Part shown: positions 6,266-12,508 of the stretch, piece after piece
Layout: every line of letters starts with the position of its first letter
Position numbering within the stretch: the first letter of the stretch is position 1
NCBI RefSeq assembly: GCF_900111025.1
Contig: NZ_FOFN01000001.1
Span: forward strand, 1,240,001-1,304,000
Direction: 5' to 3'
Origin: Hyunsoonleella jejuensis
GTDB taxonomy: Bacteria; Bacteroidota; Bacteroidia; Flavobacteriales; Flavobacteriaceae
DNA length: 64,000 nt
Program-made: the position numbers and the translations under genes
The notes under the pieces: generated by a model
The model's database searches: none
The model's input: the letters and a program-made list of their open reading frames with translations, nothing else
What the model was told of the DNA's origin: nothing

Positions 6266-6278
6266 AATCAAAATAAGG

Positions 6279-6336
6279 TCGAGCGCAGTCCAAACCTCAC
6301 TGTTTAAAAATATAAAAACCACTCGACTGCGCTCGA
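6279..6336. repeat. Inverted repeat with TCGAGCGCAGTC arms between O-methyltransferase and ACMSD genes
   Basis: TCGAGCGCAGTC (6279-6290) and its exact reverse complement GACTGCGCTCGA (6325-6336) flank an AT-rich 34-bp centre. The right arm can also fold alone (CTCGA-CTGCGC-TCGAG). It occupies most of the 87-nt spacer between the two cistrons: 13 nt upstream of one start and 16 nt after the other stop. No gene-specific role is evident. Confidence 0.8.
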
Positions 6337-6352
6337 GCGGATATCGATTTTC

Positions 6353-7438: not shown

Positions 7439-7443
7439 TTTTG

Positions 7444-7520
7444 TTATTCCTGCGAATGCAGGAACATCTTTTAAAATTAAGCTTTAATAACCAAGATTCC
7501 TGTATTCGCAGGAATGATAA
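7444..7520. repeat. Inverted-repeat element with TTCCTGCGAATGCAGGAA arms filling the ACMSD/dioxygenase spacer
   Basis: The left arm 7444-7470 (TTATTCCTGCGAATGCAGG then AACATCTT) and right arm 7493-7520 are near-perfect reverse complements, and each arm contains its own CCTGCGAATGCAGG-like palindrome. The element begins 5 nt upstream of the ACMSD ATG and ends 2 nt beyond the dioxygenase stop codon, so it is the whole spacer. In the mRNA sense it ends with GCAGGAATAACAAAA before ATG, giving an AGGA at ribosome-binding distance. Confidence 0.85.
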
Positions 7521-7522
7521 TG

Positions 7523-8059: not shown

Positions 8060-8192
8060 AAGCCCCTCTTAATCTCCCCAAATAGGGAGAAACTCAAATC
8101 GGGTATTTGAGTTTTGTTGAATTAAAATTATATATAAAGATAATACATCTTCTGTGATTTCTCCCTCCCTTTGGCAGGTTTGGGAAGGGCTT
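8060..8192. repeat. Composite inverted-repeat element, copy A (SDR/dioxygenase spacer)
   Basis: A 133-bp element. Left arm AAGCCCCTCTTAATCTCCCC with AAATAGGGAG; then a hairpin AACTCAAAT-cgggta-TTTGAGTT; an AT-rich centre; then a right arm that is the left type inverted, ending GGGAAGGGCTT at 8192. It fills the spacer: 3 nt from the dioxygenase ATG and 2 nt from the SDR stop. Related elements lie at 10845-10961 and 12350-12508. The terminal inverted arms suggest a small non-autonomous mobile or REP-like element; there is no coding capacity. Confidence 0.85.
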
Positions 8193-8194
8193 TT

Positions 8195-8977
8195 TTATAA
8201 AGATTTGGTTCTTCCACCATCCACAGGAACATTTATACCATTAATGTAACTGGCAGCTTCACTTGCTAAAAACACAATAGCATTTGCTGTTTCTTTAGGT
8301 TGAGCAAATCGTTTTACTGGCGTGTAATTTTTCATGATCTCTGTCATTTCTTCAATAGTCCTATCTTCCAATTTTGCCTTAATTTTAATAATTTCCGTTA
8401 AGCGCTCAGTATCGGTAAAACCTGGTAACACATTATTCACGGTTATGCCAAATTCTGCAACTTCAATAGATAACGTTTTGCTCCAATTACCCACAGCGCC
8501 TCTAATAGTATTACTTACGCCAAGTCTTGGAATTGGTTCTTTAACAGAGGTTGATATTACATTAATAATCCTTCCAAAGCCCTCAGCTTTCATAAACGGA
8601 ATGGTAGCTTGTGCTAACAAATGGTTACATTTTAGGTGCATGGTAAAAGCATTTTCAAAAGCTTCTAAACTAGCATTTATAATTTCCCCACTTGCAGGCC
8701 CTCCAGTATTGTTTACCAAAATATGAAAACCATGTTCCCGTTCTATAAACTTAATGACCTGTTCTTGCAGATCTCTAGGATTTAGAAAATCGGCTACCAA
8801 ATAACTATGGTTTCTATGTTGAGGTAATTCGGCTAATACTTCTTTGAGCTTTTCCCTATTTCTGGCTACTAACGTTACGTTTACACCTTCTTGTGCCAGT
8901 GCAATTGCTGTTGCTTTTCCTATGCCTTGGGTGCTTCCGCAAACAAGGGCGTTTTTGTTGTTTAAGTTGAGGTTCAT
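8195..8977 (-). CDS. SDR-family protein of the kynurenine operon with altered catalytic residues
   Basis: A 260-residue short-chain dehydrogenase/reductase fold. It has a glycine-rich GSTQGIG (14-20) where TGxxxGIG is usual, NNTGG (89-93) for NNAG, ISTS (141-144) at the catalytic serine, and the C-terminal INGINVPVDGG. The active-site YxxxK is replaced: alignment of RGAV with the usual KAAV puts Ser155 in place of Tyr and Arg159 in place of Lys. The annotated beta-ketoacyl-reductase-like SDR subgroup without a perfect tetrad fits. Its place between the semialdehyde dehydrogenase and the dioxygenase suggests a job in the lower pathway, for example on 2-aminomuconate or its deaminated product, but this is inference. 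Confidence 0.85.
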   Translation of the reverse strand: MNLNLNNKNALVCGSTQGIGKATAIALAQEGVNVTLVARNREKLKEVLAELPQHRNHSYLVADFLNPRDLQEQVIKFIEREHGFHILVNNTGGPASGEIINASLEAFENAFTMHLKCNHLLAQATIPFMKAEGFGRIINVISTSVKEPIPRLGVSNTIRGAVGNWSKTLSIEVAEFGITVNNVLPGFTDTERLTEIIKIKAKLEDRTIEEMTEIMKNYTPVKRFAQPKETANAIVFLASEAASYINGINVPVDGGRTKSL

Positions 8978-8995
8978 TTATTATGGGTTGGTTAA

Positions 8996-10435
8996 TTAAT
9001 ATTTTATACACACATTTTTAGGTTCAGTAAAAAAGCGCAAAGCTTCAAATCCACCTTCACGGCCAATGCCAGAAGCTTTTGTGCCGCCAAAAGGCGTTCG
9101 TAAATCGCGTAACATCCAAGTGTTTACCCAAACAATGCCAGATTGCAGCATACTACTCATTCTCATCGTGCGCTTTAAATCATTAGTCCAGAGTGTTGAA
9201 GACAAGCCATATTTTACGTTATTGGCCATCTCTAGAACTTCTTTTTCGGTTTTAAAGGGCATGAGCGTTACTACTGGCCCAAAGATTTCTTCTTGATTTA
9301 TCTGGCATTCATTATTGGAAACTTCTATTACAGTCGGTTGCATATAATAGCCATTTTTAAAACCTTCAATAATGACTTTATTTCCGCCACATAGAATTTT
9401 GCCACCTTCTTTTTTAGCAATATCAACATAGTGTAACACTTTTTCTAAATGGGATTTTGAAACCAATGCGCCAATATCCGTATTGGGTTCAGAAGGATGT
9501 CCTAATTTTAGGTGTTTCACTTGCTTAACAAAATCTGTTTTAAATTTATCATAGATAGCATCTTCCACAAAAATTCTGCTACCACATAAGCAAATTTGCC
9601 CTTGATTAGAGAAGGAAGAACGCACCGTGGTCTCTAGCATGTCATCATAATCACAATCAGCAAAAATGATATTTGGATTTTTCCCACCTAATTCAAGAGA
9701 TAATTTCTTGAACATAGGAGCTGCAATTTTAGCGATATGGGCTCCTGTTTGTGTGCCTCCAGTAAATGAAATCGCTTTAATATTTGGGTGCTCCACGATG
9801 GCTTGTCCAGTAGTATTGCCTAAGCCATGAACAATATTTAAAACCCCATGAGGGAGGCCAGCTTTATTTATTAGTTCACCCAATAGAAAAGCCGTTATTG
9901 GCGTAACCTCACTTGGTTTGGCAACCACACAATTACCTGCAGCAATGGCAGGAGCAATTTTCCATGTGAATAAATAGAGTGGAAGGTTCCACGGTGAAAT
10001 ACAGCCAACAACACCTATAGGTTGGCGTAGTGTGTAATTTATGGCACTTTGGCCTGTACTTTCATGACTTTCACTGGCAAATTGGGTAATAGCGTTTCCG
10101 AAGAATCTAAAATTACTCGCTGCTCTTGGAATATCTATAGCTTTTGCTAAACTAATAGGTTTCCCATTGTCTTTACTTTCTGCTTCTGCAAAACGGTCTA
10201 GGTTTGCTTCTAGCAATTCCGAGATTTTAATTAAAATCCTACTGCGCGCTTCTAGCGTAGTTTTAGACCATGATGAAAACGCAGCTGTTGCACTTTGATA
10301 AGCTTTTTCTACGTCGTCTTTTGAAGAGTTAGGGATTTGTCCGTAAACTTCACCATTTGCAGGGCAATAATTATCTATCCAATTATTAGAAATAGGATTT
10401 TCAAATTTACCGTTGATGAAGTTTTGGACTTTCAT
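8996..10435 (-). CDS. 2-aminomuconate 6-semialdehyde dehydrogenase
   Basis: A 479-residue NAD-dependent aldehyde dehydrogenase. It has the oxyanion and cofactor segment SPWNLPL (147-153), general base Glu248 (LELGGK), nucleophile Cys282 (NQGQICLCGSR) and the EEIFGPV motif. The GQICLC context resembles 2-aminomuconate and 2-hydroxymuconate semialdehyde dehydrogenases. It oxidises the unstable ACMSD product to 2-aminomuconate, preventing its cyclisation to picolinate. Its ATG directly abuts the stop of the upstream deaminase gene (0 nt), suggesting translational coupling; 18 nt separate it from the SDR gene. Substrate assignment rests on operon context plus motif. Confidence 0.92.
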   Translation of the reverse strand: MKVQNFINGKFENPISNNWIDNYCPANGEVYGQIPNSSKDDVEKAYQSATAAFSSWSKTTLEARSRILIKISELLEANLDRFAEAESKDNGKPISLAKAIDIPRAASNFRFFGNAITQFASESHESTGQSAINYTLRQPIGVVGCISPWNLPLYLFTWKIAPAIAAGNCVVAKPSEVTPITAFLLGELINKAGLPHGVLNIVHGLGNTTGQAIVEHPNIKAISFTGGTQTGAHIAKIAAPMFKKLSLELGGKNPNIIFADCDYDDMLETTVRSSFSNQGQICLCGSRIFVEDAIYDKFKTDFVKQVKHLKLGHPSEPNTDIGALVSKSHLEKVLHYVDIAKKEGGKILCGGNKVIIEGFKNGYYMQPTVIEVSNNECQINQEEIFGPVVTLMPFKTEKEVLEMANNVKYGLSSTLWTNDLKRTMRMSSMLQSGIVWVNTWMLRDLRTPFGGTKASGIGREGGFEALRFFTEPKNVCIKY

Positions 10436-10840
10436 TTATAACTTTTTAAAGGCCACAACCTTAATCTCCACTACCAAATCAGGGTGAGGTAATTGATGAA
10501 CCGCTACGGTAGTTCGTGTTGGTCCATTTTCCTTGTCAAAAAACTCTGCATAAGCTTTATTATAGCCTGCAAAATCATTCATATTTACTAAAAAGGTTGT
10601 AACGTCTACCACATTTTTTAATGAGGCTCCAATTTTGGTTAGGTTCTTCTCAATATTTTTTAAAACTTCTCGGGTTTGTACTTCTATATTTAGGTGTTTT
10701 GTACCCATTTCGTCAATAATATCTACCCCTGCAATGGTGTTGTCGGGTCGCCTAGAACTAGTTCCAGAGACAAAAATAAAATCGCCAACTCTTTTGGTAT
10801 GTGGATAAGCTCCTCTTGGTGTTACTGATTTGTCGTTCAT
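10436..10840 (-). CDS. 2-aminomuconate deaminase (RidA/YjgF family)
   Basis: A 134-residue RidA-fold protein: [19 protein letters not shown] near the N-terminus, [11 protein letters not shown], and [21 protein letters not shown] with the conserved Arg that binds the substrate carboxylate. The family hydrolyses enamines and imines; this branch (like AmnD and NbaF) deaminates 2-aminomuconate to 4-oxalocrotonate. The neighbouring dehydrogenase supplies the substrate. The start at 10840 has AGGAGG about 9 nt upstream in the mRNA, contributed by the adjoining repeat element, unusual for a phylum that rarely uses Shine-Dalgarno sequences. Confidence 0.9.
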
Positions 10841-10844
10841 ATTT

Positions 10845-10961
10845 AAGCCCCTCCTAACCTCCCCAAAAGGGAGGAATTCTTACTCGGGTGGATAAGAATT
10901 TATTGTTATTTGTGTAAAGCGCAACCTTTCCCTTCCTTCGGAAGGGGTAGGGAAGGCTCTT
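10845..10961. repeat. Composite inverted-repeat element, copy B (kmo/deaminase spacer)
   Basis: A 117-bp element. Left arm AAGCCCCTCCTAACCTCCCC with AAAAGGGAGG, then a hairpin ATTCTTA-ctcgggtgga-TAAGAAT, an AT-rich centre, then an inverted right arm (CCCTTCCTTCGGAAGGGG, ending GGAAGGCTCTT). It starts 4 nt from the deaminase ATG and ends at the base before the kmo stop codon. It has the same order of parts as copy A, including a CGGGT hairpin loop. Confidence 0.85.
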
Positions 10962-12419
10962 TTATCTTAATCCAGCAATTCTATCGTCTTCTAAAATTGC
11001 TTCTGTTTCATTTTTCACCTTGTCTAATATCAATTGTATATCATCTGATGGTGAAATTACACCATCTGATAGCATATTTAAAATAGCCTTGTCTTGCGCT
11101 CGCCCCCTTAACATCGCCTCACGATAGCCGATGTCCTCATTAAAAGTAACCAAACTATATTTTGATGCATATTCTTTTGGGAAATGTTTTTCTAGTGCCA
11201 TTTCTATTTTTCGTTTTTCCTGGAAAATAGGATTAGCCACATGGTCTTTCATCTCATGGAAATTATCAATAGCCAAATCAGCAATGGCATCGGTATCCTT
11301 CTTTCTGCTTTTTTCATATTCTTGGAAAACGGTTTCCCAATCACCTTTATGTTTGTTTAAAACCGCATCAAATTCAACAATATCTTCAAACGATGCATTC
11401 ATACCTTGTCCGTAAAACGGTACAATAGCATGTGCCGCATCACCCATTAACAGTGTATTGCCCTTATAATGCCAAGGTGAACATTTTATGGTGCCTAGAG
11501 GTGCTGTTGGGTTTTCAAAAAAATCGTCTGTAAGATTCGGCATTAAGGCCAAGGCATCAGGAAACTCTTTTTGAAAAAATTCTAAAACGATTTTTTCATC
11601 AGTTAGATTATTAAAATTGTATTCGCCGTCATCATAACTTAAAAAAAGTGTTACCGTAAAACTTCCGTCTAAATTAGGTAGCGCTATCAACATAAAACTC
11701 TTGCGAGGCCAAATATGCAATGCGTTTTTGTGTATTTTATAACCGCCATTAGGCTTGGGTAAGATACTCAGTTCTTTATAGCCATGGGATAGGTAGGATT
11801 GAGAAAAACTAAACAAAAACTTTTTACCCAAATAATAACTTTTTCGCATAGCGGAACCGGCGCCATCTGTAGCAATAATTATATCTGCATCTTCAATAAA
11901 TTCTTCTTTTGTACGATAATCTGTAAAGCGAGCTGTGGTTTTTTCAAAATCCACCGATGTGCATTTTTTATTAAAATAGATGCTCACATTTTTGTGCTGT
12001 TCAGCTTCATCTAAAAGTAATGCATTTAAACCGCCTCGAGAAATAGAGTTGATATATTCGTGGTCTCTGCCACTGTAATTAGATTGAAACGTGTTGCCGT
12101 TTGCATCATGAATCATTCTCCCATGCATAGGAATACAGAGTTGATTCACTTTTTCATCAATCCCTACGAGTTTCATGGCTTTGTTACCTCTGTCTGAAAA
12201 TGCCAAATTTATAGAACGACCAGCACTAATATCTACTTTTCTTAGGTCTGGGCGCATTTCGTAAACAGCAACGTTGTAGCCTCTTTGACCTAAGCGTAAC
12301 GCTAATAGAGAACCGCATAGTCCTGCACCTATGATTAATATGTTTTGAGAAGCCCCACCTAAATCTTTCCCATTGGGGAAGACTTTCTCACTCTTACTTT
12401 TGATTTCTTTTTCTATCAT
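10962..12419 (-). CDS. kmo: Kynurenine 3-monooxygenase with repeat-encoded N-terminal extension
   Basis: A 485-residue FAD monooxygenase. The dinucleotide-binding ILIIGAGLCGS begins near residue 27, RSINLAFSDRG is a KMO signature, and GDAAHAIVPFYGQGMNA is the second FAD motif. It hydroxylates L-kynurenine to 3-hydroxykynurenine with NADPH and O2. The oddity is the first 25 residues: homologs normally start a few residues before the Rossmann strand. Here residues 13-24 (VFPNGKDLGGAS) are encoded by an arm of the interspersed element at 12350-12508. ATG 12419 is the only Met codon upstream of the FAD motif, so translation must cross the repeat. The lack of the C-terminal membrane anchor of eukaryotic KMO suggests a soluble enzyme. 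Confidence 0.94.
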   Translation of the reverse strand: MIEKEIKSKSEKVFPNGKDLGGASQNILIIGAGLCGSLLALRLGQRGYNVAVYEMRPDLRKVDISAGRSINLAFSDRGNKAMKLVGIDEKVNQLCIPMHGRMIHDANGNTFQSNYSGRDHEYINSISRGGLNALLLDEAEQHKNVSIYFNKKCTSVDFEKTTARFTDYRTKEEFIEDADIIIATDGAGSAMRKSYYLGKKFLFSFSQSYLSHGYKELSILPKPNGGYKIHKNALHIWPRKSFMLIALPNLDGSFTVTLFLSYDDGEYNFNNLTDEKIVLEFFQKEFPDALALMPNLTDDFFENPTAPLGTIKCSPWHYKGNTLLMGDAAHAIVPFYGQGMNASFEDIVEFDAVLNKHKGDWETVFQEYEKSRKKDTDAIADLAIDNFHEMKDHVANPIFQEKRKIEMALEKHFPKEYASKYSLVTFNEDIGYREAMLRGRAQDKAILNMLSDGVISPSDDIQLILDKVKNETEAILEDDRIAGLR

Positions 12420-12508
12420 GTCTTGTCATCCTGAACGTGTTTCAGGATCTCATTATGTTTTAATTTATTTTGGTTCCCTCTCTTTTGGAGAGGGCTAGGG
12501 AGAGGCTT
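12350..12508. repeat. Composite inverted-repeat element, copy C, overlapping the kmo start and kynU end
   Basis: The left arm 12350-12384 (AAGCCCCACCTAAATCTTTC then CCATTGGGGAAGAC) lies in the kmo reading frame. The inverted right arm 12472-12508 (ending GAGAGGGCTAGGGAGAGGCT) lies in the kynU frame. Between them are the kmo start codon, a separate hairpin at 12425-12450 and the kynU stop. Arm sequence and orientation match copies A and B. It therefore seems to be the same element, longer, with both flanking genes extending into it. Confidence 0.75.
12425..12450. repeat. Hairpin repeat ATCCTGAA/TTCAGGAT nested in copy C
   Basis: ATCCTGAA (12428-12435) pairs with TTCAGGAT (12441-12448) around a 5-nt loop. 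The sequence GTCATCCTGAACGTGTTTCA is of the kind I recall as scattered through flavobacterial intergenic regions. It lies 6 nt upstream of the kmo start and 9 nt after the kynU stop. Confidence 0.65.

Follow-up and report, generated by a model that had tools for sequence, protein, structure and literature searches.

A probably mobile palindromic repeat family at gene junctions of Flavobacteriaceae, with arms that also bracket an in-frame DUF559 domain

Three elements in the kynurenine operon of Hyunsoonleella jejuensis, here termed A, B and C, represent the same repeat. They probably belong to a family of mobile palindromic repeats in Flavobacteriaceae, in which two inverted hairpin arms enclose an AT-rich middle and some copies have a further hairpin inside, with a CGGGT loop. 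B and C are insertions that occupy otherwise tight junctions between genes and are not parts of the operon. Arms of this type also flank an in-frame DUF559 endonuclease domain, an arrangement that suggests, short of proof, the route by which the repeats spread. Palindromic repeats at gene junctions are a known kind, REP sequences and Rickettsia palindromic elements being similar; arms that bracket DUF559 are new.

We analysed a 64-kb window (64,000 nt) in which the inverted hairpin arms of A, B and C end in AAGCC...GGCTT (Table 1). A weight matrix trained on the six arms scored them at 18.7-25.7 bits against 14.6 for the next place, and scanning the window with it revealed no further arms. The left arms of A and B agree at 73% over an ungapped alignment of 45 nt. 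The proposal of the initial annotation that A, B and C share one element is supported. The CGGGT-loop inner hairpin reported for A and B was confirmed and recurs in other copies, its covariation being weak evidence because the 23 hairpins viewed were picked from 40 matches of a search that demanded at least 6 pairs. A and B do form complete intercistronic spacers, ending 2-4 nt from start and stop codons. The claim of three exact fills did not extend to C, which overlaps the KMO and kynureninase frames: the left arm reaches with its outer end into the KMO frame, 69 nt from where that frame starts, and the right arm likewise into the kynureninase frame, 47 nt from the stop. Arms at the KMO frame start are also present in L120, L124, L135, L138, L145 and L146. 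The repeat of a different family in the HAO-amidohydrolase spacer has arms (pair I2) that are 88% complementary, and similar words occur in junctions of relatives.

Table 1. Repeat features of the kynurenine operon in window coordinates; E values are those of model R1 in the own genome.
Feature	Position	Strand	R1 E value	Description
Element A	8060..8192	-		whole spacer between SDR and 3-hydroxyanthranilate dioxygenase (HAO) genes
A left arm	8060..8093	+	3.1e-6	starts AAGCCCCTC; 3 nt to HAO start codon
A inner hairpin	8090..8114			AAACTCAAAT-CGGGT-ATTTGAGTTT
A right arm	8159..8192	-	1.5e-6	2 nt to SDR stop codon
Element B	10845..10959	-		whole spacer between KMO and RidA-like genes
B left arm	10845..10878	+	1.6e-9	4 nt to RidA-like start codon
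B inner hairpin	10875..10900			AATTCTTAC-TCGGGTGG-ATAAGAATT
B right arm	10926..10959	-	4.1e-6	2 nt to KMO stop codon
Element C	12350..12508	-		overlaps ends of KMO and kynureninase frames
C left arm	12350..12385	+	0.0022	opposite strand codes ...KVFPNGKDLGGAS, KMO N-terminal extension
Hairpin between C arms	12427..12453			TCATCCTGAACGTGTTTCAGGATCTCA; other repeat family; similar words in several relatives
C right arm	12473..12508	-	1.3e-4	codes kynureninase C-terminus (...SLSLALSKREGTKIN)
Different-family inverted-arm repeat	7441..7520			TTATTCCTGCGAATGCAGGAA...; fills HAO-amidohydrolase spacer 7439-7522

We searched with R1, a covariance model built from 23 arms; run over 1.1 Mb, it recovers each of the six window arms, all of them in its training set, with E between 5e-10 and 7e-4. 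The profile search of this genome and its relatives, proposed at the outset, returned 29 arms at E up to 0.01 and 42 at E up to 10 in the own genome, and 10 of 12 genus members, own genome counted, have 7-36 arms. In the stretches searched against Rfam, the element reaches no family's gathering score. Palindromic inserts stand in frame in recG, leuS, a hemW-like frame, kmo and kynU. By eye, most complete pairs of the own genome seemed to share one orientation, their left arm being at the start codon.

The arms are placed far from randomly, as had been surmised. In the own genome, 21 arm ends are intergenic, and 20 of them are no more than 10 nt away from a start or stop codon, where a uniform distribution would give 5% (35 of the 42 R1 matches entered this count). 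The same distance from a gene end holds for 22 of 24 in relatives with the kynurenine operon (43 of 48 non-window R1 rows used, five at E 0.07-0.31 dropped) and, across six more genomes of the genus, for 48 of 64 (60 loci hand-picked among the best matches listed; G004, G005 and G010 left out). Spacers of at most 15 nt contain 1010 of the 109363 intergenic bases in the kynurenine-operon relatives. Arms occupy tight gene junctions, gene ends and protein loops, where they are translated in frame or contribute the stop codon. A target motif for insertion was rejected, none having been found, and no target-site duplication was evident for the copies compared. Orientation bias was likewise rejected: among 95 of 96 arms from six genus genomes, starts and stops are faced by left arms about as often as by right arms (one without a facing gene was dropped, and the crude word rule for arm type left 20 of the 95 unassigned).

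Random insertion and purifying selection alone, with junctions and tolerant loops being simply where insertions survive, is a possible but rather doubtful account of this placement. In its favour, copies within genes keep the reading frame and occupy loops or places near gene ends, and other repeat families share the same junctions. Long spacers, however, hold most intergenic bases and few arm ends. Because selective loss elsewhere fails to explain this avoidance of longer spacers, some junction preference likely remains. The earlier suggestion that selection had removed copies elsewhere is thus consistent with in-frame and gene-end survival but not with the avoidance of longer spacers.

Comparison with relatives, based on the same 43 arm rows as the placement count, separates the three sites. 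The KMO-RidA spacer, site of B, measures 0-11 nt in 33 of 74 relatives, some of the others holding other repeat families, and the KYNU-KMO spacer, site of C, measures 4-15 nt in 29 of 80 (leaving out three negative lengths in the short class). Junctions this short (0-15 nt overall) in so many relatives mark B and C as insertions. At the SDR-HAO junction, site of A, no spacer of 15 nt or less was found among 69 relatives; the spacer is 25-58 nt long in 24 of them, and 10 carry an arm-bearing element. Empty sites, by which the initial annotation would have judged insertion, therefore exist for B and C and not for A. At L117, the SDR-HAO junction holds Flavo-1 RNA (RF01705), which resembles A in its location and differs from it in sequence.

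These junctions also bear on whether the repeats are functional intercistronic RNA elements, for instance as stabilising hairpins or by providing a GGAGG-like ribosome site ahead of the ATG, an explanation we consider very improbable. Its appeal lies in the stable predicted RNA folds of A (-42.0 kcal/mol for the mRNA-sense strand; z -3.6 relative to approximate dinucleotide shuffles), B (-43.0 kcal/mol, z -2.7) and C (-44.5 kcal/mol, z -3.9; both with a dinucleotide-shuffle control), in the left arm of B, which on the gene strand reads AGGAGGGGCTT shortly before ATG, and in the recurrence of arm-bearing elements at junction A. Against it stand the many relatives with empty junctions, the nearly equal facing of starts and stops by both arms, and the arm copies within proteins. 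A role of the element tied to the kynurenine operon, left open by the initial annotation, is rejected, as its junctions are empty or otherwise filled in many relatives and the arms show no orientation preference.

A longer form is found in recG of the own genome, where a DUF559 endonuclease domain sits in frame between related arms. The insert scores 104.7 bits against PF04480 (DUF559; curated cut-off 20.6), and its arms match R1 weakly (E 2e-4 and 0.09). At this one site, examined in 19 of 30 fetched loci, the insert is absent (3 nt, one residue) from G001, G005, G007, G009, G012, G013, G014, G016, G018 and G038, and a DUF559 form of 438-447 nt is present in G000, G003, G006, G008 and G017. 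G004 has the left arm alone (42 nt) and G002 the right arm alone (39 nt); the lengths of the empty, DUF559 and single-arm forms are all multiples of three. Other short inserts, of unclear origin, occur in G011 (30 nt) and G042 (24 nt). In leuS (28 loci; some genomes are represented twice, and three loci lack usable anchors), site 1 carries DUF559 with arms in G002, G004, G034, G070 and G084, and a 93-nt form in G006 and G011 retains arm and linker sequence with the nuclease absent. Two other leuS sites carry single arms, and the G013 leuS insert showed no arm by eye. Many recG and leuS copies are common by descent, and their counts are not independent.

DUF559, which we take to be a Vsr-like, PD-(D/E)XK-type endonuclease, has a solved relative in 3hrl ('Endonuclease-Like Protein', E 2.6e-19), and 26 aligned domains share thirteen invariant columns, several of them acidic. 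Hairpins lie on both sides of 10 of 30 DUF559 domains in relatives, compared with 8 of 997 other ORFs (30 of 31 loci; L085, a weak partial match, left out). Class-wide, G+C-rich hairpins flank both sides of 15 of 30 DUF559 loci versus 8 of 1234 random places, and 27 of the 30 have a hairpin on at least one side (L326 on one). With the strength threshold set by the analyst's choice, a hairpin on either side was absent from 10 of 30 loci in relatives and 3 of 30 class-wide. This test replaced an inverted-repeat alignment around DUF559 that beat its own control in only 8 of 30 loci. Seventeen of the 30 class-wide domains stand in frame within leuS, metH, acs or hsdR. Arms at DUF559 differ in sequence from genome to genome. 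In G078, the arm around the DUF559 gene is not dispersed, its 3 matches all lying about 250 nt or less from the gene; DUF559 is present in G006, where no arm passes R1 at E 0.01, and G007 has 29 arms and no DUF559.

The last genome fits an alternative that we regard as unlikely, although not negligible, in which these are ordinary REP- or MITE-like repeats that a Y1 (RAYT-type) transposase mobilises in trans, DUF559 being a passenger or near the repeats for other reasons. Y1_Tnp matches four places in the own genome, one of them within a 193-aa reading frame uninterrupted by stops, and REPs of other phyla lie less than 20 bp from the 3' ends of genes, can provide the stop codon and occur in ORFs (PMC3733652). 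A word search of the four own-genome loci, however, showed single arm-like words and no inverted pair, DUF559 is bracketed by hairpins far above control, and recG has arm-DUF559-arm and arm-only forms at one site, all of which disfavour a Y1 origin.

Among known systems, REP/REPIN/BIME sequences (GTAG and CGTC superfamilies, RAYT-associated) resemble A-C: they are short hairpin units in inverted pairs near gene ends that may supply stop codons and sometimes lie within ORFs (PMC3733652). The family likewise consists of short imperfect palindromes, often in inverted pairs. Unlike REPs, its arm ends bear no GTAG or CGTC tag noticeable by eye, and related arms bracket DUF559, with no arm pair found by word search at the Y1 transposase loci of the own genome. 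REP copies usually exceed 100 per genome (PMC2817692), whereas the R1 counts given above are lower. Rickettsia palindromic elements share with our family in-frame palindromic inserts in genes, those of Rickettsia being in housekeeping proteins (PMC10969869 and PMC3733652); the sequence and phylum, the DUF559-bearing long form and the many copies in operon junctions set our family apart. MITEs, such as the QMITEs of Coxiella, are similarly small with inverted ends, can extend gene C-termini and outnumber their coding long form (PMC5896051). Terminal inverted repeats are present in our family too, and arm-DUF559-arm in recG is a candidate long form with related ends (Y1_Tnp being the sole IS type sought); no target-site duplication was evident, and, as a difference from MITEs, the candidate parent encodes an endonuclease domain. 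Homing endonucleases, with their intron or intein association, compare with DUF559 in recG and leuS in occupying a fixed in-frame site in conserved genes, with empty sites in relatives; unlike them, the DUF559 domain appears to stay in the host protein and has palindromic arms at both ends.

It is plausible, from sequence arrangement, that DUF559 moves the arms. We consider it probable that the repeats are mobile and palindromic, with a DUF559-capable element and short relic forms, placed by biased insertion and selection with no kynurenine role needed. Arms of the A-C type would be the ends of an element able to carry the DUF559 domain, and full arm-DUF559-arm forms may shrink, still in frame, to a single arm. 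The short forms, A-C among them, would be non-autonomous copies or relics, moved by a DUF559-type nuclease or by some other enzyme that works on hairpin ends. The placement could arise from insertion that favours gene ends together with purifying selection, and a part in kynurenine catabolism would be unnecessary. More tentatively, Bacteroidota may harbour a mobile element class in which a Vsr-like DUF559 sits between hairpin arms, in frame in LeuRS, MetH, Acs or RecG, and spreads arm-only copies to operon junctions; the host protein itself would then carry the nuclease, and the spread of arm-only copies would parallel that of REPINs by RAYTs, with a nuclease of another fold. Such a class was not found in the literature searched.

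If DUF559 moves the arms, it would be a second kind of mobilising enzyme for bacterial palindromic repeats, beside Y1 transposases. A domain of unknown function would gain a role, and essential proteins, leucyl-tRNA synthetase and methionine synthase among them, would be recurrent homes of a selfish endonuclease domain. In Flavobacteriaceae, the repeats account for unusual spacers and for proteins that carry insertions or are extended at the N- or C-terminus, sequence that annotators may read as functional.

Pfam searches placed kynureninase (KYNU), KMO (an FAD monooxygenase by Pfam, which we take to be this enzyme), a RidA-like protein, an aldehyde dehydrogenase, SDR, 3-hydroxyanthranilate dioxygenase (HAO) and an amidohydrolase in one minus-strand operon. 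Its elements A, B and C (see the table) each consist of two arms facing one another across an AT-rich middle. In a typical arm the tail AAGCCCCTCCTAA leads into a small hairpin, CCTCCCCAAAGGGGAGG; A and B carry an extra inner hairpin with a CGGGT loop, its stems differing between the copies. The proposal of the initial annotation that one repeat is shared by three junctions is borne out, as A, B and C are copies of the same repeat. Its description of all three as clean spacer fills is contradicted at C, whose arms are translated as a C-terminal extension of kynureninase and an N-terminal extension of KMO. Six loci from relatives (L120, L124, L135, L138, L145 and L146) likewise carry an arm where the KMO frame begins.

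Repeats at the junctions of the kynurenine operon and its neighborhood
Feature	Positions	Location	Sequence
Element A	8060-8192	Operon junction, SDR-HAO
Element B	10845-10959	Operon junction, KMO-RidA
Element C	12350-12508	Operon junction, KYNU-KMO
Inverted-arm repeat of another family	7439-7522	Fills HAO-amidohydrolase spacer, 2 nt left on each side	TTATTCCTGCGAATGCAGGAA ... TTCCTGTATTCGCAGGAATGATAA
Inverted repeat	6266-6349	Near amidohydrolase-methyltransferase junction	GGTCGAGCGCAGTC/GACTGCGCTCGAGC

No further arm of similar score emerged from a scan of the window. In the source genome, a covariance model (R1) built from 23 arms yielded 29 matches at E up to 0.01, rising to 42 when the cut-off was relaxed to 10; at the 0.01 threshold, under stricter filters, 24 of 119 genomes had matches, with 7-36 arms in 10 of the 12 genomes of the genus, one in G011 and none in G006. 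Of 11 complete element pairs counted by eye in the genome, about 3 fall inside a single 4.5-kb stretch of the kynurenine operon (8060-12508). The junctions of this operon are also filled in many relatives (L115-L194), and the operon seems to be a hot spot.

Arm placement is far from random. Among 35 arms examined in the source genome, the outer end was intergenic in 21 and inside an ORF in 14. Twenty of the 21 intergenic ends were no more than 10 nt away from a start or stop codon, against 5.2% expected if positions were spread evenly over the 40 remaining spacers of the window (binomial P = 4e-25, indicative only, given that a simple ATG rule defined the frames and that many copies share descent). 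Of the in-ORF arms, nine fell within 72 nt of an ORF end, four were in leuS and recG, and one was a doubtful match (E 0.14). The count for the 80 relatives with the kynurenine operon took in 43 of 48 arms: 22 of 24 intergenic ends came within 10 nt, and each of the 19 others was at most 69 nt from an ORF end. Across six genus genomes (60 loci, hand-picked from the best of the matches listed), 48 of 64 intergenic ends lay within 10 nt and 56 within 20 nt, and 30 of 31 in-ORF ends within 80 nt of an ORF end.

Mobile palindromic repeats are placed in this way, and the present family reached no Rfam gathering score in the stretches searched. REPs of other phyla lie near gene 3′ ends, supply stop codons and also occur inside ORFs, among them those of repair genes and tRNA synthetases (PMC3733652); the A-C family shares both the sites close to gene ends and the copies within ORFs. 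Rickettsia palindromic elements likewise lie inside ORFs as inserts read in frame (PMC10969869, PMC3733652), and QMITEs can extend genes (PMC5896051), as element C does.

Relatives, located via KMO, revealed the state of each junction. The KMO-RidA spacer (74 relatives) measured 0-11 nt in 33 and 38-58 nt in 5, held R1 arms in 6 and words of other families in 15, and was unclassified in 15. The KYNU-KMO spacer (80 relatives) measured 4-15 nt in 29, a count that leaves out three more relatives with negative lengths, and 42-55 nt in 3, with R1 arms in 8, other-family words in 15 and 22 unclassified. Empty sites, sought for the shared element, were found at these two junctions; at SDR-HAO, none of 69 relatives had a spacer of 15 nt or less, the spacer being 25-58 nt in 24 and arm-bearing in 10. 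Because arms abut both stop and start there in several relatives, the old spacer seems to have been replaced rather than split. In one relative (L117, 10782-10866), the spacer before HAO is occupied by Flavo-1 RNA (RF01705). Sequences resembling it by eye occupy that position in further relatives, so that Flavo-1, too, may belong to the mobile repeats.

Repeats were also observed at other junctions. Words like those of the 6266-6349 repeat recur in junctions of some relatives. In locus L072, two genes that follow a SAM riboswitch are separated by a spacer of 387 nt (1513-1901). Arms bracket this spacer and adjoin the stop and the start directly (0 nt in each case), and further repeats seem to be nested inside it.

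Within recG of the source genome, 438 nt inserted in frame at one site encode a DUF559 domain (PF04480) bounded by arms of the A-C type. Across 19 loci including this one, the site was empty (3 nt) in ten and held DUF559 in five including our own; G004 has only the left arm and G002 only the right, the site holds short sequences of unclear origin in G011 (30 nt) and G042 (24 nt), and every insert length is a multiple of three. By eye, a first leuS site carries DUF559 with arms in five genomes and an internally deleted form in two, G013 has a leuS DUF559 insert without visible arms, and single arms occupy two further leuS sites. The loop at the first site also holds, by eye, in-frame inserts resembling several palindromic families that differ by relative (L232, L240, L244, L247, L251).

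The association recurs more widely when G+C-rich hairpins of a chosen strength are counted near the domain. Among 30 DUF559 loci of relatives, 10 had hairpins within 160 nt on both sides and 20 on at least one; the corresponding counts were 8 and 106 for 997 other ORFs, and 14 and 109 for 771 random places. Class-wide, DUF559 was present in 83 of 149 genomes, and 30 fetched loci gave 15 and 27 (random places, 8 and 198 of 1,234). In 17 of these loci DUF559 lies within a long Pfam-named frame: leuS (9), metH (5), acs (2) and hsdR (1), where it could be native. Twenty-six aligned domains, embedded and standalone, share 13 invariant columns, a sequence pattern consistent with a kept active site; the nearest solved chain is 3hrl.

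That DUF559 mobilizes the arms is possible, though we consider it less likely than not, because several observations speak against such a link: G007 combines 29 arms with the lack of any DUF559 match, in G006 DUF559 is present while no arm passes E 0.01, the arm adjoining the DUF559 gene of G078 is not dispersed in that genome, and a third of relatives' DUF559 loci lack a hairpin of the chosen strength. Y1 transposases, present in the source genome, remain a rival as movers of the arms. Separately, in locus L031 (1429-3018; G000:C2 near 279864-280202), a Y1 transposase frame continues by eye in frame into a putative coproporphyrinogen III oxidase, and the translated motifs GFKNLVGL, GFENLAG and GLKELVGL repeat around the transposase part.

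No report of palindrome-flanked DUF559 appeared in literature searched by title and abstract start, a collection with most subscription journals outside it and hence no proof of absence; judged by title, none of its papers naming DUF559 concerns palindromic repeats. The finding of palindromic repeats at operon junctions is real, and the association of DUF559 with such repeats beyond the operon is the point of interest.
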